DNA of 64,000 nucleotides from Deltaproteobacteria bacterium SG8_13. Lineage in GTDB: Bacteria; Desulfobacterota; Desulfobacteria; Desulfobacterales; SG8-13. Location of the stretch: positions 1 through 64,000 of the forward strand of contig LJNK01000027.1 of NCBI GenBank assembly GCA_001303025.1, read 5' to 3'. Below the pieces are notes generated by a model. The model had not been told where the DNA came from, ran no database searches, and saw only the letters and a program-made list of their open reading frames with translations. Of this stretch, positions 14,871-23,154 are shown piece by piece (the stretch's first letter is position 1; every line of letters starts with the position of its first letter). Both the position numbers and the translations under genes were made by a program.

Positions 14871-14948
14871 TGGCGTCCCCAAGGGGATTTGAACCCCTGT
14901 TGCCGGCGTGAAAGGCCGGTGTCCTGGACCTGGCTAGACGATGGGGAC
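14871..14948 (-). tRNA. tRNA-Glu (anticodon TTC)
   Basis: A complete cloverleaf can be folded: acceptor GTCCCCA/TGGGGAC, D arm GTCT/AGGAC region, anticodon stem CCGGC/GCCGG with loop CTTTCAC (anticodon TTC), and T arm with loop TTCAAAT. The discriminator is G and the CCA end is encoded. It is the second gene of a tRNA operon behind tRNA-Lys. Confidence 0.96.
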
Positions 14949-15020
14949 GAAGTTTTGTCCTGTATGCTGCCGCTGAGCGGATAAACGGTGCAGCGGCCTT
15001 TCGCAAAGCGATTATGGCGC

Positions 15021-15096
15021 TGGTGGGCCGTGTTGGACTCGAACCAACGACTCTCTGCTTAAAAGGCAGATACTCTACCGACTGAGTTAACGGCCC
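15021..15096 (-). tRNA. tRNA-Lys (anticodon TTT)
   Basis: The cloverleaf is complete: acceptor GGGCCGT/ACGGCCC, anticodon stem TCTGC/GCAGA with loop CTTTTAA (anticodon TTT), and T stem GTTGG/CCAAC with TTCGAGT loop. The discriminator is A and CCA is encoded. It is the first gene of the Lys-Glu operon, 72 bp before tRNA-Glu. Confidence 0.96.
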
Positions 15097-15218: not shown

Positions 15219-15965
15219 TCAGGTCGCCAGCACGAAAATGCCGTAGACGATTCCGACTGCAAGAACAAGCCAATCGCGCCGGGTGGCGGTCAACCGGTGA
15301 CCGGTTCGATCATCGGTGTAGCAGCGGGCCTCCATGGCGATCGACAGGCGGTCGGCGGCTGAAAAAGAACGACGCAGAAACGGTATGGCCAGCCAGGTGA
15401 GACGGTAGACGGGATTTATCCGGTTTTCCACCCCGCGGGCACGCTGGGCATCCATGGTCTCTGCAAACTGTACCGACAGCAGCGGTATCAGCCGCAGCAA
15501 AAGGCCAAACATGGTACCGATCCGTGCCGCGGGAAGACCTGGAAAAGGCTTCAGAAACCATTCGACCGCCGCTTTGATCTCTGCCGGCCGGGTTGTAATT
15601 ACCAGGGTCGTCCCCAGCAAAACGACCAGCAGCATTCGCGCCGCAATCAGCGCGCCGGCTGCCGCCCCCTGGCGAGAAAAGGAGAGCCAGTAAAGGCGAA
15701 ACACCGCTTCACCCGGCATGGTGAAAGCCCGGACGAGAAAAACCAGTAACAACAGGACCAGAAGATAGCGAAGTTCTGTGGTTAGCGATTTAAAGGAACA
15801 GCCCAGGAAGGAAAGTAGAGCGATCTGTCCGCACGCAAGCAGCGCCAGATGCAGCGCCCCGGCTTTTACTACCGACAGGCTCAACACAATCAAAATGACA
15901 AACTTGAACCGGGCATCAAGTGCATGCAGCGCGCCGGTACCCAAACGGTAGCTGATCGGGCTCAT
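15219..15965 (-). CDS. bioN: ECF transporter transmembrane component EcfT (BioN/CbiQ type)
   Basis: A 248-residue membrane protein. The N-terminal SPISYRLGTGALHALDARFK motif and the two coupling-helix motifs (QRARGVE and MEARCYTD, containing Ala-Arg-Gly/Cys) are those of energy-coupling-factor T components, which link substrate-binding BioY to the ATPase. The order bioY-ecfA-ecfT on one strand, next to birA, indicates a dedicated biotin importer. The start ATG 15965 lies 5 bp past the ATPase stop with GGGAG upstream; the frame extending to 16007 would overlap the ATPase gene. Confidence 0.9.
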   Translation of the reverse strand: MSPISYRLGTGALHALDARFKFVILIVLSLSVVKAGALHLALLACGQIALLSFLGCSFKSLTTELRYLLVLLLLVFLVRAFTMPGEAVFRLYWLSFSRQGAAAGALIAARMLLVVLLGTTLVITTRPAEIKAAVEWFLKPFPGLPAARIGTMFGLLLRLIPLLSVQFAETMDAQRARGVENRINPVYRLTWLAIPFLRRSFSAADRLSIAMEARCYTDDRTGHRLTATRRDWLVLAVGIVYGIFVLAT

Positions 15966-15970
15966 CCGGA

Positions 15971-16711
15971 TCACTCCCGCCGGTTCGCCGGCCACCCGCA
16001 TGTGCATGGCTTGCGAACACCGAAGTCACCGACTTCATTAGCAATTTGTACCGGAAAGCCGTCTCGGACGATTCTGCCGGCCTGCATGACGATCAACCGG
16101 TCGGCGATGAAAAGCACCGGTTCCAGATCATGCGTGGTGACGATAACGGTGTAGCCGTCATTCTTTAAACGGCAGATTTCAGCGACAATGCTGCGAACAC
16201 CGGTATCGTCGAGGCTGGCAAAGGGTTCGTCGAAAGCCACGACACTCGGTCCCATTGCCAGTATGCCGGCCAGTGCCAGCCGCCGTTTCTCCCCGCCGGA
16301 AAGCAGGTGCGGGGGCTTGTCTGCCAGCGCTTTCAACCCGACGGACTCCAGCGCAGCAGATACCCGGCGATCCACTTCTGCCGGGTCCAGCCGCAGGTTT
16401 TGCGGCCCAAAGGCTACGTCGGAGGCCACCGTTTCGCCGACAATCTGGCTGTCGGGTTCCTGAAACACCAGCCCCACTTTGCGCCGGGCTCTTCTGACAT
16501 CTGCAGATACCGGCATGCCGTCTATCCGCACAATGCCTGCTGTGGGGTTCAGCAACCCGTTGAGGTGCCGCAGCAGCGTTGTTTTTCCCGACCCGTTTGA
16601 TCCGGCGATCACCACGAAAGAACCCTTGGAAATCGATAGGCGGATACCGTCCAGGCCCACCGTTCCGTCGGGAAATTGATGCTTCAGGTTTTCGAGTTCG
16701 ACGATGTTCAT
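15971..16711 (-). CDS. bioM: ECF transporter ATPase EcfA (BioM)
   Basis: A 246-residue ABC ATPase. Walker A GSNGSGKTT lies near residue 38, a Q-loop at VFQEPDSQI, the ABC signature LLSGGEKRRLALAG near 142, Walker B VVAFDEPFASLDD near 162 and the switch His in VTTHDLEP. It powers biotin uptake together with EcfT and BioY. It starts 18 bp after the bioY stop. A single ATPase gene (rather than an EcfA1/A2 pair) fits the dedicated group I BioMNY arrangement. Confidence 0.92.
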   Translation of the reverse strand: MNIVELENLKHQFPDGTVGLDGIRLSISKGSFVVIAGSNGSGKTTLLRHLNGLLNPTAGIVRIDGMPVSADVRRARRKVGLVFQEPDSQIVGETVASDVAFGPQNLRLDPAEVDRRVSAALESVGLKALADKPPHLLSGGEKRRLALAGILAMGPSVVAFDEPFASLDDTGVRSIVAEICRLKNDGYTVIVTTHDLEPVLFIADRLIVMQAGRIVRDGFPVQIANEVGDFGVRKPCTCGWPANRRE

Positions 16712-16728
16712 CGCGCTTCCGTCCGCCC

Positions 16729-17319
16729 TCAGGGAGTGGAGCCGGTCCTGCCGGCAGTTTCCATCCGCATCGGATCAGCTGCCGGCACTTCGGTCTGCAT
16801 GACAGGCCGCAGGGAACGGGCAATGGGAATGGCAGCAGCGATTTTCAGTGCATCACCGATCAAAAACGGCAACATGCCGACGGCCAGGGCCTTGGTCCAC
16901 GAAAGGCCGGTAACCACTTTCAGCCAGCTAACGCCGCAGGCATAAAGCAACAGCGTTCCGAGCACCATGGCCCCTGCCTCGCGCAGCAAGCGATGATCGG
17001 AACCTCGCGTCATCCGGCCGATGATGTAAACGGCGGGCAGATATCCGATCAAATACCCTCCGGTGGGTCCGATAAGCCGGCCGATCCCGGCCTGGCCACC
17101 GGCGAAAACCGGCAACCCGCAGAATCCGGCCAACAGGTATATGCCGACGCTGGCTAGACCCCAGCGTGGGCCGAGCAGCAACCCCGCCAGCATGACAAAT
17201 AGATTCTGCAGCACGATCGGCACCGGACCGATCGGCACGGCAATGAAGGCCCCCATGGCCGTAAGCGCGGCAAAAAGGGCGGCAAAGACACTCATGCGCA
17301 GGGAATGAGAATCGGTCAT
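16729..17319 (-). CDS. bioY: Biotin transporter substrate-binding subunit BioY
   Basis: A 196-residue membrane protein with six hydrophobic helices. Characteristic BioY blocks are PIGPVPIVLQNLFVMLAGLLLG and the GRLIGPTGGYLIGYLPA loop that closes over biotin. It captures biotin with high affinity and hands it to the EcfAT module encoded directly downstream. The start is ATG 17319, 5 bp behind AAGGAG; an in-frame GTG two codons earlier lies too near the ribosome site. A proline- and charge-rich C-terminal tail follows the last helix. Confidence 0.95.
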   Translation of the reverse strand: MTDSHSLRMSVFAALFAALTAMGAFIAVPIGPVPIVLQNLFVMLAGLLLGPRWGLASVGIYLLAGFCGLPVFAGGQAGIGRLIGPTGGYLIGYLPAVYIIGRMTRGSDHRLLREAGAMVLGTLLLYACGVSWLKVVTGLSWTKALAVGMLPFLIGDALKIAAAIPIARSLRPVMQTEVPAADPMRMETAGRTGSTP

Positions 17320-17496
17320 ATTCACTCCTTCCGGGCTTGGCTGCCGGCATACGCACGCCTGACAATCCGCCCCGGCTTTTTGAAAGGTGTTGGGGCAATG
17401 CGCACAAAACCCGCGTCACGCGTCATACTGGTGACCAACCGCCCCAGCAGCGAGGCACGCGCAACACCGAAATCCGGTCCTGTGCCTTGTGATCAT

Positions 17497-18429
17497 TTAC
17501 ACGTGAAAACAGTCCCCGTATAGGACCGTCTTCAATGAACCGTCAGCCAACTCCAGGATCAGCGATCCGTTCGAATCGACGTCAACGGCCCGTCCTTGGG
17601 TCTCTCCCTGCAGCGTGACGATTTTCACCTGCCGCCCGATTGTAATCGACAGCGACTTCCATGTCCCGATCACCGACTCCATGTCCATGGAATCGGACGC
17701 GAGCCGGGCTTCAAGTCGATCCAGAAAAACGGCCAGCAGCTGTTTGCGGGAAACCGGTTTTCCCATCAACCGGCGCAGGGTGACCGCCCCGGGCTCCTGG
17801 GGCGGCGGGTCATTGTTGACGTTGACACCCACGCCGATATTCACGTAAGACACACGATCCGCCTCGGCCTCCATTTCTGCCAGGATGCCCGCGATTTTCC
17901 TTTCATCCACCAGCACGTCGTTGGGCCACTTTACCGCGGCCGGCAGGTCGTAATCTCTCCGGAGGGTGTCCGCCAGCACCAGCGAGGTGCAAAGGTTGAG
18001 TCGAGGACTCAGCGCCGGAGGGATCCGCCGCCGCAGAACGATCGTGAAATAGAGTCCACCGGCAGCCGAGTGCCAACTGCGGTTCAGTCGTCCGCGTCCG
18101 GCGCTTTGCTGGTCGGCCACCACCACTGTAAAGTGCGGACAGCCGCTGCGGGCCATTCCGCGTGCTTGCTCCATTGTCGATTCGATCCGCTGGAAATGAT
18201 GAATGGTCGCTTCCCGTCCGGGAAATTCCCAGGCAAAGGGGATATCAGGATCGGTTACGAGCCGGTAGCCTTTGGGAGTGGCTTCGATTTCGTACCCAAC
18301 CTGTCGCAGCCGGTGTACATGCTTCCAGACAGAGACCCGGGAAACATCTAAGGCACGGCTCAATTCCGAGCCGGAAACAACATCGCGGCCCGCGCGCAGC
18401 ATGGATAGAATGGTTTGTTTGGGATCCAT
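17497..18429 (-). CDS. birA: Bifunctional biotin-protein ligase / biotin operon repressor BirA
   Basis: A 310-residue protein. Residues 1-60 form a winged helix-turn-helix (SGSELSRALDVSRVSVWKHV), so this is the repressor-type class II ligase. The catalytic domain has the biotinoyl-AMP loop motif SAGRGRLNRSW and the KWPNDVLV and KIAGILAE motifs, with a C-terminal SH3-like domain. It activates biotin and biotinylates carboxylase subunits, and in the biotin-AMP-bound form represses biotin genes. It stands 177 bp upstream of bioY on the same strand, and a candidate BirA operator lies just before its own start. Confidence 0.95.
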   Translation of the reverse strand: MDPKQTILSMLRAGRDVVSGSELSRALDVSRVSVWKHVHRLRQVGYEIEATPKGYRLVTDPDIPFAWEFPGREATIHHFQRIESTMEQARGMARSGCPHFTVVVADQQSAGRGRLNRSWHSAAGGLYFTIVLRRRIPPALSPRLNLCTSLVLADTLRRDYDLPAAVKWPNDVLVDERKIAGILAEMEAEADRVSYVNIGVGVNVNNDPPPQEPGAVTLRRLMGKPVSRKQLLAVFLDRLEARLASDSMDMESVIGTWKSLSITIGRQVKIVTLQGETQGRAVDVDSNGSLILELADGSLKTVLYGDCFHV

Positions 18430-18570: not shown

Positions 18571-18999
18571 TCAGATGATACGGATCACTCGCGGACGGTA
18601 AGATTTCTGTCTTGCCAGTCGGTTGCCGGTGCGGCGAATGAGTAAAAAAGACAGCAGGAAACAGCCCACACCCACTGCCGCTGATAGGCCGGAAGGATTT
18701 ATATCAAAGGACGGGGCCAACACCTGCCCGACCACCGCCCCGGCCAGCATCAACAGGATCGGAAATACGTAAAGCAGAAACGAGACTTTCAGAACGGCAC
18801 CGGACCCGATCCGCAGCAATATCTGGTCACCCACTTTCGCCCCGGCAACGTTGACGGCTTCGACCTCCATTTCTCGGCTGTCACCTGACAGGTGACAAGA
18901 CTGCCGGGAGGTTCACCCCTCGCAGGCGCCGGTGCGCACGGTTTTGACCCAGGCGGTGTCCGCTTCGATCCGAGTAACGATTCCGCGTTCGGTTGGCAT
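18571..18999 (-). CDS. rseC: RseC/MucC-family membrane protein with in-frame TGA read as selenocysteine (Sec29)
   Basis: Conventional reading gives only a 99-residue product from ATG 18870. Extending the same frame upstream adds MPTERGIVTRIEADTAWVKT, then VRTGACEG, a TGA at 18913-18915, and TSRQSCHLSGDSRE. That completes a full-length RseC protein of about 142 residues. The family has a CxxCxxxxxC redox/metal motif at its N-terminus; here it reads C26-x2-U29-x5-C35, so TGA replaces the second Cys exactly. A SECIS-like hairpin follows the TGA. Two hydrophobic helices (about residues 73-92 and 105-121) and a basic C-terminal tail match RseC topology. ATG 18870 has no ribosome site. An alternative upstream start is ATG 19008. 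RseC proteins belong to the SoxR-reducing Rse/Rnf systems, and this gene follows an rnfB-type gene. Confidence 0.82.
18875..18906 (-). promoter_or_regulatory. Bacterial SECIS-like hairpin for Sec29 of RseC
   Basis: Starting 15 nt after the TGA, TGTCACC pairs perfectly with GGTGACA around the loop TGTCA. A lower stem of CGGC with GCCG encloses it, with a 5-nt bulge on one side. The apical loop begins 22 nt after TGA and its second base is G. Both features match the bacterial SECIS rule of a short stem-loop about 16-37 nt downstream with a G in the first two loop positions. The hairpin lies inside coding sequence, as bacterial SECIS elements do. Confidence 0.75.
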
Positions 19000-19176: not shown

Positions 19177-21252
19177 TCAACTCGCCTTCTTCGACTCGCT
19201 GTCGGAATGAAGGTAGCAAATCAGCCCGCATTGCAGGCAGCGGCCTGCCTCCCGGCGAGCGGCGGCATCATCGAAACCGACCTCCAGCTCCCCACCCTCG
19301 GTCAGGTCGCTGGCGGCGCGAACGGGCATGACGTTGCGAGCCGCAGTGGAAACATCTTCTACGCTGTCGACATTTTGAATGGGGCTTCCGGGAGCGACCA
19401 CATGATCGGGCAGCTCCAAAGAGATGCCGTACATGATCTCGTGGACAGAAGCCGCCGCGCGACGGCCGGCGCCGATGGCTCTTATGGCTGCGCTGTAATC
19501 GGTGAACACGTCGCCCCTGGCAAACAGGCCGATCTCTGTGCGAAAAGCCGGCTCCTTGTAAGGATCGACCGCCTGCCACTGCAGGGCCTGCTGGACGGTT
19601 TCGGCCGGTGCTTGCCCGTCAGTCGGTCGCTCGTCTTCGGCAGACCTGGTGAAGATCAGCTCAGGGAAACGGCCGGCGGCCATAATCAATGTGGATGCCT
19701 GCAGGATGCCGGTTTCCCGGGATCGCAGATCGACAGTACCCAACCCGGTCAATGAATTGTTTTCGCCGAAAAGCCGGTTGATACCGGTCTGAAATCGAAC
19801 ATCGATGTTCTCATTGCGCAGATTCTGGATTTCCTTCGCGTCAAGATCGAGCTCGGCAGATGTCTCCCGAAATACCACCGTCGTCTGTTTTGCCCCCGTG
19901 GCCCGACAGGCGCGCGCGGCCTCCAGGGCCAGCGGGCCGCCACCGTAGATCACCAGGTCCGCCGTCAGCTCCGGCATCGCAGCGCCCTGGCGGGATAGCG
20001 CCATAAAATCGATCAACAGATAGGTTCCGGGAATCGGCGATTCGATGTTACCGGAAGCCCCGCGGGCCAGACGGCTGTCCCATCCGCCGGAAGCCAGCAG
20101 GACTGCTTCGTGACCCTGCTCCAGCAGCGATGAAACGGTAATGTCCTTTCCGAGGAACTTTCCGGTTTCGGCAATTACCCCCATCTCGGTCACACCGTCG
20201 ATATCCCAGTCGAGTATGTCTTCCGGCAGACGATACCGGTCGATGGCGCTGCGCAGCAGTCCCCCCAGTTTCGCCGTCGCCTCGTAGACGGTGGCTTCGT
20301 GGCCCAAGCGGGCCAGGAAAAAAGCAGCCGACAACCCCTGCACGCCGCCGCCGGCCACCGCCACCTTGCGGCCGGTGGCCGGCGCCTTATACGGCATGAC
20401 GCGCTCTTTTTGCTCCCTTTCGTAATCGGCAGCGTACCGCTTCAAAAAATTGATGGCCACCGGTTCATCCACGTACTGCCGCCGGCACTCGATCTCGCAA
20501 GGCCTCGGGCAAATCCGTCCGATGACAGCCGGGAAAGGGTTGCGTTCCTTGATCACCTGAACCGCCCGATGATAGTCTCCCAGAGAGATTTGGCGGATGT
20601 ATTCGCAAATGTTGATCCCGGCAGGACAGGCCCGCTGGCAGGGTGTCGTGCAATCGTCAGTCGTGTATTCCCTTAAAATGCGCCGGGTGACCGAAGAGAG
20701 GTTGATGATGTGTTTCGGGCAGACCCGCTCGCAGGTGCCACAGCCGGTGCAAAGGATTTCGTCCACCACAGGCAGGCCGTCCTCCCCCATGGTTATGGCG
20801 TTAAACGGGCAGGCACGCACACAGGTTCCAAGTCCCAGGCACCCGATGGTGCACACTTTCATGCCGCCGGAAAGCATGGCCGCGGCCCGGCAGTCATTCA
20901 TGCCGTTGTAGACAAACTTGGTGTCGGCGTCGGCTACACCGAACGTACAGCCCGGTCTGGCAATATCGGGTTCTTTGGCTTCGACCGTCACCCCCATGAT
21001 CCCGGCGATTTCCTCCGCCGTTTCCGCGCCGGCGGCCACGCAGGAATTGGGAGCCGCCCGGCCGGCGACAATCGCTTCGGCATTGGCGCTACAGCCGGGA
21101 AGACCGCAGCCGCCGCAGTTGGCTCCGGGAAGCGCCTCCTCTACCGCCAGTATCTGCGGATCGACGTACACGTAAAAAACCTTGGAAGCCGCTGCCAGGC
21201 AGACGCCCACCAGCAGTCCCAAGCCGCCCATCATATACAGTGCTTCAATCAT
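19177..21252 (-). CDS. RnfB-GltD fusion: membrane-anchored Fe-S/FAD electron-transfer subunit
   Basis: A 691-residue fusion. Residues 1-30 are the RnfB membrane helix. The RnfB Fe-S domain follows (Cys46, 49, 54, 71 in GANCGGCGLPGC), then two [4Fe-4S] motifs (Cys134/138/144/148 and Cys168/171/174/178). From about residue 200 the protein turns into a GltD / NfnB-like unit: the Fe-S domain DDCTTPCQRACPAGINICEY, CPRPCEIECRR, an FAD site at GGGVQGLSAA (301-310), a second dinucleotide fold at VIYGGGPLALEAARA, and a C-terminal RCLQCGLICY. It would pass electrons between flavin, ferredoxin-type clusters and NAD(P). It lies 35 bp downstream of the NuoF-like gene. No rnfACDGE genes are beside it. Confidence 0.9.
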   Translation of the reverse strand: MIEALYMMGGLGLLVGVCLAAASKVFYVYVDPQILAVEEALPGANCGGCGLPGCSANAEAIVAGRAAPNSCVAAGAETAEEIAGIMGVTVEAKEPDIARPGCTFGVADADTKFVYNGMNDCRAAAMLSGGMKVCTIGCLGLGTCVRACPFNAITMGEDGLPVVDEILCTGCGTCERVCPKHIINLSSVTRRILREYTTDDCTTPCQRACPAGINICEYIRQISLGDYHRAVQVIKERNPFPAVIGRICPRPCEIECRRQYVDEPVAINFLKRYAADYEREQKERVMPYKAPATGRKVAVAGGGVQGLSAAFFLARLGHEATVYEATAKLGGLLRSAIDRYRLPEDILDWDIDGVTEMGVIAETGKFLGKDITVSSLLEQGHEAVLLASGGWDSRLARGASGNIESPIPGTYLLIDFMALSRQGAAMPELTADLVIYGGGPLALEAARACRATGAKQTTVVFRETSAELDLDAKEIQNLRNENIDVRFQTGINRLFGENNSLTGLGTVDLRSRETGILQASTLIMAAGRFPELIFTRSAEDERPTDGQAPAETVQQALQWQAVDPYKEPAFRTEIGLFARGDVFTDYSAAIRAIGAGRRAAASVHEIMYGISLELPDHVVAPGSPIQNVDSVEDVSTAARNVMPVRAASDLTEGGELEVGFDDAAARREAGRCLQCGLICYLHSDSESKKAS

Positions 21253-21287: not shown

Positions 21288-23135
21288 TTAATCGATCGCG
21301 TCGAACTTGCATTTTTCAAAACAGGTCATGCACTGGATGCATTTTTCCTTTTCAATACGGGCGACCTCTTTCTTTTTCCATTCGATCGCCTCAGACGGGC
21401 AGGCCCGAAAGCAAGCACCACATTTCGTGCAGGCGTCCGTATTCACCTCGAACTTCAGCAGTGCCACACAGCGTTTGGCCGGACAACGTTTTTCAACAAT
21501 GTGGGCTTGATACTCGTCCATGAAATAGCGCAAGGTGGACAAAACGGGGTTGGGACCGGTCTGCCCCAGCCCGCAGAGCGAAGCACTGCGTATAACGACG
21601 GCAAGATCTTCCAGGGTGTCCAGGTCGGACGGCTCTCCACTGCCAGCGCAGATTCTTTCAAGAATCTGCAGTTGGCGCCGGGTTCCCTCCCGGCAGGGGG
21701 TGCATTTGCCGCAAGATTCGTCTTGAACAAAATCCATGAAGAACCGCGCCATGTCCACCATGCAGGTTTTTTCATCCATCACGATGGCACCGCCCGAGCC
21801 CATGATGGCCCCGGCTTTGACGATGGCCTCGAAATCGACCGGTGTATCGACTAACTGTGCCGGTATGCATCCGCCCGAAGGGCCTCCGAGCTGCACCGCC
21901 TTGAGCTTTCTTTTTTTCGGTATCCCGCCGCCAATATCATAGACGATGGTGCGCAGCGGCGTTCCCATGGGTACTTCCACCAATCCGATGTTATTCACGT
22001 CTCCGGAAAGGGCGAACACCTTGGTCCCTTTGCTGGTCTCGGTGCCGACACTGGCATACCAGTCGCCGCCGTTGAGGATAATCTGGGGAACATTTGCATA
22101 GGTTTCGACGTTGTTGAGAATCGTCGGCTTTTCCCATAGCCCCTTGTGGGCAGGAAAAGGCGGGCGTGGGCGCGGCATGCCGCGTTTGCCTTCGATGGAG
22201 CGCATCAGCGCCGTCTCCTCGCCGCAGACAAAAGCGCCGGCCCCCTGGTAGATCTCGATATGCAGATTGAATCCGCTGCCCAGAATATCGTCTTCCAGCA
22301 GACCCAGTTCTGTCGCCTGGCGGATGGCGATGCCCAGCCGGTGGACGGCCAGAGGGTACTCGGTTCTGACGTAAATGTACCCCTTGCTCGAATGAATGGC
22401 GCGGGCAGCAATGATCATGCCCTCCAGCACCGCATGGGGGTCGGCCTCCAAAATACTGCGATCCATGAAAGCCCCGGGATCGCCTTCATCGGCATTGCAC
22501 AGGACGTACTTGACATCACCCGGACTGTTTTTGGCAAATTCCCACTTGAGGCCCGTGGGAAAGCCGGCGCCGCCGCGGCCCCGGAGTCCGGAAATCTTCA
22601 TCTGTTCGACGATCTCTTCCGGCTGCAGTTCAAACAGCGCCTTGGCAGCGGCCAGATAACCGTCCCGCGCAATATAATCGTGAATATCTTCCGGATCGAT
22701 TCGTCCTTTGTTGCGCAGCGCTCGAGGCATCTGGTGGGTGAAAAAGGGGATGTCGTTTTGAGAGGCGATGACTTTCTTGCTGACCGGATCCTTGTAAAGC
22801 AGTCTTTCGACCGGCTGGTTGTTGATCAACTGCTGCTCGACCAGCTCGGGGATATCGTCAACGCTGAGTTTTTCATAGAAGAAATCACCGGGCTGCACCA
22901 CCAGCAACGGGCCCATGGCACAAAAGCCGTTGCAGCCGGTCTCGATGATTTTTACCTTTTCGCCAAGACCTTTAGCGTCGACCTCCCGGGCAAGCGCGTC
23001 TTTTACGGCAATACTTCCGGTCGCATGGCAGCCGGTACCGCCGCATATCAGGCAATAGGTCCTGTCTGTAAAGGCAACCGACTCCGCCCGTTGCTGCCGG
23101 ATGGTCGCCAGGTCATCCACACTCAGCTTCGCCAT
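21288..23135 (-). CDS. NuoF/HydB-like NADH-binding flavoprotein subunit
   Basis: A 615-residue protein. An N-terminal thioredoxin-like [2Fe-2S] domain (CLICGGTGCHATGS, later CNGFCAMGP) precedes the NuoF core: GLRGRGGAGFPTGLKW for NADH/FMN, CNADEGDPGAFMDR, and SCGKCTPCREGT for the N3-type cluster. Two C-terminal [4Fe-4S] motifs follow (CTKCGACFRACP and CIQCMTCFEKC). This is the layout of NADH-binding subunits of bifurcating hydrogenases, formate dehydrogenases and Stn transhydrogenases rather than of complex I. The start is ATG 23135 with GAGGAG 7 bp upstream; a GTG at 23150 would overlap that site. The DRTGG gene ends 20 bp before it. Confidence 0.92.
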   Translation of the reverse strand: MAKLSVDDLATIRQQRAESVAFTDRTYCLICGGTGCHATGSIAVKDALAREVDAKGLGEKVKIIETGCNGFCAMGPLLVVQPGDFFYEKLSVDDIPELVEQQLINNQPVERLLYKDPVSKKVIASQNDIPFFTHQMPRALRNKGRIDPEDIHDYIARDGYLAAAKALFELQPEEIVEQMKISGLRGRGGAGFPTGLKWEFAKNSPGDVKYVLCNADEGDPGAFMDRSILEADPHAVLEGMIIAARAIHSSKGYIYVRTEYPLAVHRLGIAIRQATELGLLEDDILGSGFNLHIEIYQGAGAFVCGEETALMRSIEGKRGMPRPRPPFPAHKGLWEKPTILNNVETYANVPQIILNGGDWYASVGTETSKGTKVFALSGDVNNIGLVEVPMGTPLRTIVYDIGGGIPKKRKLKAVQLGGPSGGCIPAQLVDTPVDFEAIVKAGAIMGSGGAIVMDEKTCMVDMARFFMDFVQDESCGKCTPCREGTRRQLQILERICAGSGEPSDLDTLEDLAVVIRSASLCGLGQTGPNPVLSTLRYFMDEYQAHIVEKRCPAKRCVALLKFEVNTDACTKCGACFRACPSEAIEWKKKEVARIEKEKCIQCMTCFEKCKFDAID

Positions 23136-23154
23136 TGAATTGCTCCTCACCGTA

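Follow-up and report, generated by a model that had tools for sequence, protein, structure and literature searches.

The RseC protein of the Escherichia coli SoxR-reducing (Rsx) system carries conserved cysteines at positions 26, 29 and 35, according to the accessible part of PMC11729352. It has been reported that these three cysteines support an oxygen-sensitive Fe-S cluster, and mutants of the protein indicate that two of the three suffice. In Clostridium ljungdahlii, autotrophy requires rseC, which also affects rnf expression (PMC9124969, accessible part). Selenocysteine (Sec) has been placed within Rnf-type electron transfer as well: Table 1 of PMC13188914 contains a Sec-containing RnfB-type Fe-S protein (NF005503, UxxC), and a Sec-containing RnfC has been predicted and is already listed (PMC13188914 and PMC5029168, in the portions of both that are accessible). 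The same table gives other predicted selenoproteins of the CxxU/UxxC kind.

The rseC gene described here lies in the window, the whole stretch of 64,000 nucleotides analyzed from contig LJNK01000027.1 of Deltaproteobacteria bacterium SG8_13, and can be compared with each of these systems. It resembles E. coli RseC in matching the whole of the RseC_MucC family (PF04246), in the CxxCx5C spacing at 26, 29 and 35 and in two predicted helices (residues 66-98 and 102-129 of the AlphaFold model) that recall the membrane helices of the E. coli protein (PMC11729352, accessible part), but it differs by a predicted Sec at position 29 and by an RnfB-GltD-like neighbor, whereas the E. coli gene sits by rpoE-rseAB. 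With the Sec-containing RnfB-type protein and RnfC it would share the presence of Sec within Rnf-type electron transfer, although these belong to other protein families. Like the predicted CxxU/UxxC selenoproteins of Table 1 in PMC13188914 (as far as that table is accessible), it combines a putative Sec two residues from a Cys with many Cys homologs; RseC differs from them in having two membrane helices, one more conserved Cys and, in E. coli, a reported Fe-S cluster. The coordinates of the locus are collected in Table 1.

Table 1. Features of the rseC locus and its upstream neighbors, in positions of the window
Feature	Position	Strand	Remarks
rseC coding sequence	18571..18999	minus	142 residues with putative Sec29, terminal TGA; PF04246 118.9 bits when read through
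Putative Sec codon, TGA	18913..18915	minus	middle cysteine of CxxCx5C; TGA also in the same-genus genome
Cys26 codon, first motif cysteine	18922..18924	minus	putative Sec position in G051 and G162
Cys35 codon, third motif cysteine	18895..18897	minus	
SECIS-like hairpin	18878..18898	minus	9-bp stem, GUC loop beginning 24 nt past the UGA
RnfB-type N-terminus fused to GltD-like NAD(P)/FAD oxidoreductase	19177..21252	minus	upstream of rseC; PF04060, Fer4, PF14691, PF07992
NuoF-like gene	21288..23150	minus	upstream of the fusion; PF01512, PF10589 over cut-off

Translation of the rseC frame contains a single internal TGA, which is residue 29 and falls between Cys26 and Cys35, so that the CxxCx5C motif is complete if Sec is counted as Cys, with Cys itself at two of the three places. 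The sequence-only reading had proposed that reading through this codon joins an RseC N-terminus to a 99-codon frame, and the profile searches bear this out: with Sec entered as Cys for scoring, the read-through protein aligns with positions 1-130 of the 130 in PF04246 (E 1.8e-34; curated cut-off 24.4 bits), while the 99-codon frame alone reaches 76.1 bits, above the cut-off, over positions 38-130 only. Since the positions before 38 are matched only on read-through, the segment preceding the TGA is also RseC, and the presence of an in-frame TGA within a full-length RseC gene is confirmed. Translation might also start at an ATG that lies in frame nine bases upstream of 18999. The gene is the sole RseC match in its 3.8-Mb draft genome (125 contigs, 91.5% complete), and it was among the 30 candidates given by a scan of the window for TGA read-through frames with redox-like motifs. 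Judged by its profile scores, the product is a member of the RseC family and not an E. coli-type equivalog, the NCBIfam model for the latter (NF008115) giving 40.3 bits against a cut-off of 184; no Sec-specific RseC model was matched in NCBIfam. A PDB sequence search with the protein returned no relative at E <= 0.1. The AlphaFold model has a mean pLDDT of 81.9, falling to only 56 for residues 21-30 and 51 for residues 31-40, and because of this low confidence around the motif its geometry is left without claim.

The reading that we favor, with a probability of about 0.9, is that the rseC of the window would be a selenoprotein gene whose UGA codon is decoded as Sec. Insertion of Sec, which we infer, is very likely, and the checks that were run support the selenoprotein interpretation put forward from the DNA letters.

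The simplest alternative, a sequencing error or a nonsense mutation leaving a wrong base or a broken gene, draws on the draft state of the assembly that contains the window, and is nevertheless very improbable in view of how the codon recurs. In G001, a separate assembly of the same genus whose protein is 91% identical to that of the window, the same codon is TGA; two genomes of the same family carry Cys at residue 29, and no other stop codon is found there in these close relatives. PF04246 was searched in 194 genomes, that of the window together with relatives as far out as the order, with repeat searches of the 50 genomes that had further matches and of the families of G051 and G171. RseC matches were obtained in 164 genomes, over the cut-off in 163, and six of the 194 have an internal TGA in an over-cut-off RseC: G000 (the window), G001, G051, G151, G162 and G171. 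The TGA-bearing G171 and G151 are single-contig genomes. No over-cut-off match in the 194 genomes contains an internal TAA or TAG; the two TAA-bearing matches, in G055 and in G144 (at C227, where TGA occurs too), are both below the cut-off. G051 also has an additional Cys-type RseC copy (L037). In a second RseC copy of G171 (L094) the cysteine-motif part reads N.

Scanning genome_contigs, a collection of 84,980 species, for a strict CxxU pattern yielded six loci, three of which are RseC as judged by translation (L055, L056 and L057). Of these, L056 adds LT984855.1, from the uncultured Desulfobacterium sp. TRIP AH-1 (G389), and the scan also returned what are apparently G171 (CP070746.1, Desulfobacterales bin36) and G001 (JAHEIV010000123.1). 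The other three, L058 and L060 (Pseudoxanthomonas) and L059 (Bacteroidetes), were rejected on their translations as chance matches. The UxxC pattern was found in one of 389 genomes of the order, which is G051 itself; a looser UxxC pattern gave one match among 395 in the phylum, discarded as chance because its letters include an in-frame TAG. The patterns are tied to a V-[KR]-T-like start and let variants escape (the strict ones, G162 and G151), so no total is derived from them. A plasmid search gave no match.

The comparison set of 80 fetched non-redundant RseC proteins, which is part of all matches, divides into 73 with CxxCx5C, five with CxxUx5C (G000, G001, G171, G151 and G389) and two with UxxCx5C (G051 and G162), and no other internal TGA occurs within the first 125 residues of any of them. 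The three motif columns do not vary when the window protein, with Sec written as C, is aligned with 42 Cys-type relatives. By rough arithmetic, the chance that five independent TGAs all fall on three of about 125 codons is near 1e-8. The earlier argument that a TGA on a motif cysteine exceeds chance is upheld by the same-genus genome and five further genomes that carry such a TGA, and this recurrence again speaks against an error in the window.

A maximum-likelihood tree computed for the 80 proteins from an alignment of only 143 columns suggests a repeated exchange. The seven Sec rows sit in five places among Cys forms: the genus of the window groups with its Cys-type family members G002 and G003 (99/83 and 100/98), G389 pairs with the Cys-type G106 (100/100), G171 and G151 fall within a group (95/93) that also holds Cys forms from f29, f8 and f55, G162 goes with f67 (98/79, not strong and with a long branch), and G051 lies in an unresolved part of the tree. 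The minimum number of Cys/Sec changes is five, at least four of them forced by strong branches, in counts that do not tell gain from loss of Sec. Forcing the seven Sec rows into a single clade was rejected (p-AU 0.000191), as was doing so with the five CxxU rows (p-AU 0.002). Since Cys is the usual state, the pattern is most simply explained by repeated Cys-to-Sec exchange, and the swap seems to have been made several times among related bacteria.

Codon comparisons further indicate that RseC is maintained by purifying selection on both sides of the TGA. Between the window and G001, dN is 0.074 and dS 0.41 before the TGA (27 codons), and dN 0.049 and dS 0.74 after it (113 codons); between G171 and G151 the values are dN 0.145 and dS 1.14 before (27 codons), and dN 0.109 and dS 0.74 after (114 codons). 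Selection on the part behind the codon is a further point against a broken gene.

It could also be proposed that the UGA is a real stop, the gene being expressed in two pieces or controlled through termination followed by reinitiation at ATG 18870, where the 99-codon frame that passes PF04246 by itself begins. This is hardly credible. No clear Shine-Dalgarno sequence precedes ATG 18870 on inspection, in agreement with the earlier remark that this start has no ribosome site; the piece before the stop would amount to 28 residues; and in G171 the longest open frame with a start codon downstream of the TGA does not begin until within the first membrane helix. Moreover, the middle-cysteine column holds Cys in 73 of the 73 fetched Cys-type relatives, as expected from the claim that the stop hits a conserved motif cysteine.

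Under the favored Sec reading, a SECIS element would lie behind the codon, and a hairpin of that shape had been pointed out there; it is present, and strong in the genus of the window, but varies among the other Sec-RseC genes, and this argument is weaker than proposed. Starting at the UGA of the window, a stretch of 61 nt has a folding energy of -24.3 kcal/mol (z -2.8), equalled by 2 of 200 shuffled sequences. When the 45 nt that follow the codon are folded, z is -3.7 in the window and -2.5 in G001, against -0.75 to +0.69 in the other five Sec genes; 73 Cys controls have a mean z of -0.04, five of them lying at -1.5 or below. A hairpin rule devised after the sequences had been seen (stem of at least 4 bp, loop of 3-6 nt with GU) is passed by six of the seven Sec genes, two pairs of which are sisters, whereas of the 73 controls 8 pass when counting starts at Cys1 and 6 when it starts at Cys2; at 5 bp or more, the numbers are 4/7 versus 4/73 and 1/73. 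G389 has no hairpin by this rule. The window and G001 share an identical 20 nt at the hairpin, which is weak support because a 30-nt identical run occurs elsewhere in the gene. A SECIS in the genus of the window is likely; elsewhere the SECIS-like hairpin is weaker and a candidate only.

The machinery for Sec synthesis and insertion, for which a check had been proposed, is present in the genome of the window, with selA (608 bits), selB (328 bits against a cut-off of 242, the gene being cut by a contig start), tRNA-Sec (76.5 bits against a gathering score of 47; ARAGORN reports tRNA-SeC with anticodon tca) and selD (371 bits; G000:C34:9626-10549, L080), the last with an in-frame TGA of its own. 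Among 14 control genomes the cut-offs were exceeded by selA in one, selB in two, tRNA-Sec in five and selD in two, so that tRNA-Sec alone is the least specific marker. The sel genes were also searched in six relatives, a set that leaves out G151 and G162, and tRNA-Sec in the window's genome alone. Of the seven genomes searched, six have selA (the exception is G002) and all seven have selD with an in-frame TGA, taken from the window's genome and from the best match in each of the others. At E <= 1e-40, selB was found in three of the six relatives (G051, G171 and G389) and not in G001, G002 or G003, which are 70-82% complete; G001, at 72%, thus combines Sec-RseC with no selB at that threshold. 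The selB cut-off is passed twice each in G051 (L064, L066) and G389 (L063, L065).

The least probable alternative, that the UGA is decoded as an amino acid other than Sec through readthrough or a change of code, starts from the fact that DNA alone does not reveal the residue, but it faces the Sec pathway of this genome, the usual Sec/Cys exchange implied by TGA at Cys positions, and the use of TGA to end both rseC and the upstream fusion, which makes it an ordinary stop there.

The genomic surroundings of rseC point to electron transfer. The RnfB-GltD-like fusion and the NuoF-like gene are co-directional with rseC; the fusion exceeds the cut-off of TIGR01944 (rnfB; 77.5 bits over 68.7), and the NuoF-like gene scores 494.7 bits with TIGR01959, below the cut-off of that model. 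Visual inspection of translations places the fusion, or the end of it where a contig is cut, next to Sec-RseC in the six other Sec genomes; as it also adjoins the Cys-type RseC of G003 (L036), this layout does not set Sec forms apart. The fusion of G171 (L034) and G151 (L096) carries a TGA in frame where the ANCGGCG motif of the window has its first Cys (AN-U-GGCG), and in these two genomes it is likely a second selenoprotein beside Sec-RseC. The end of the fusion gene in G151 (L096) lies in two frames, 537-2195 and 2096-2446, in a single-contig assembly. On the other side of rseC, the minus strand at 15219-18429 encodes a BirA-type biotin ligase with HTH, BioY, an ABC ATPase and a CbiQ-type subunit, a group that looks like a biotin uptake set, and two tRNA genes lie at 14874-15096, also on the minus strand.

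Taken as a Sec codon, the UGA would be read by the ribosome as SelB and Sec-tRNA(Sec) deliver Sec, helped by the hairpin behind the codon. The predicted product is a full-length RseC made of a cytoplasmic CxxUx5C domain, two membrane helices and a short tail. Sec would replace one of the three cysteines that support the Fe-S cluster in E. coli RseC, possibly providing a more reactive and more easily re-reduced selenol, and Sec-RseC probably works beside an Rnf-type electron-transfer module, a putative partnership suggested by its NuoF-like and RnfB-GltD-like neighbors. We infer that Sec-RseC serves this module, with Sec tuning a redox or Fe-S site. The occurrence of Sec at either of two positions is compatible with a redox pair of the CxxC type as well as with a cluster site whose ligands can be exchanged. 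A more tentative proposal, rather unlikely at present, is that Sec in RseC acts as a selenolate Fe-S ligand and, together with Sec in the RnfB fusion of G171 and G151, forms a selenium-ligated electron path. If the ligand reading were true, lineages would have placed selenium at two ligand positions, a repeated natural experiment on Sec-ligated Fe-S clusters.

Regarding novelty, neither RseC nor PF04246 is listed in the accessible part of the 2026 inventory of 119 prokaryotic selenoprotein families and subfamilies (PMC13188914), in keeping with the earlier remark that RseC had not been described as a selenoprotein. The main texts of PMC12013277, PMC9312934, PMC8318568 and PMC5029168 contain no occurrence of rseC. 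A literature search pairing rseC with selenoprotein or selenocysteine gave nothing relevant, its one co-mention having rseC only in a reference title, and no paper was found that links any two of the SoxR reducing system, selenocysteine and an Fe-S cluster ligand. Sec-RseC is new as far as this literature goes; a groundwater MAG survey reports further candidate selenoproteins, according to the accessible text of PMC13188914, and could include the RseC family.

Sec-RseC would add to the selenoproteins a family of membrane proteins linked to Rnf-type electron transfer, one in which ordinary gene calling on the window rseC would yield a 99-residue fragment. The Cys-to-Sec exchange at two alternative positions hints at which RseC cysteines do the chemistry, a question that the E. 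coli mutants left open, and selenium may serve as a spectroscopic probe to distinguish thiol redox from Fe-S ligation in RseC.
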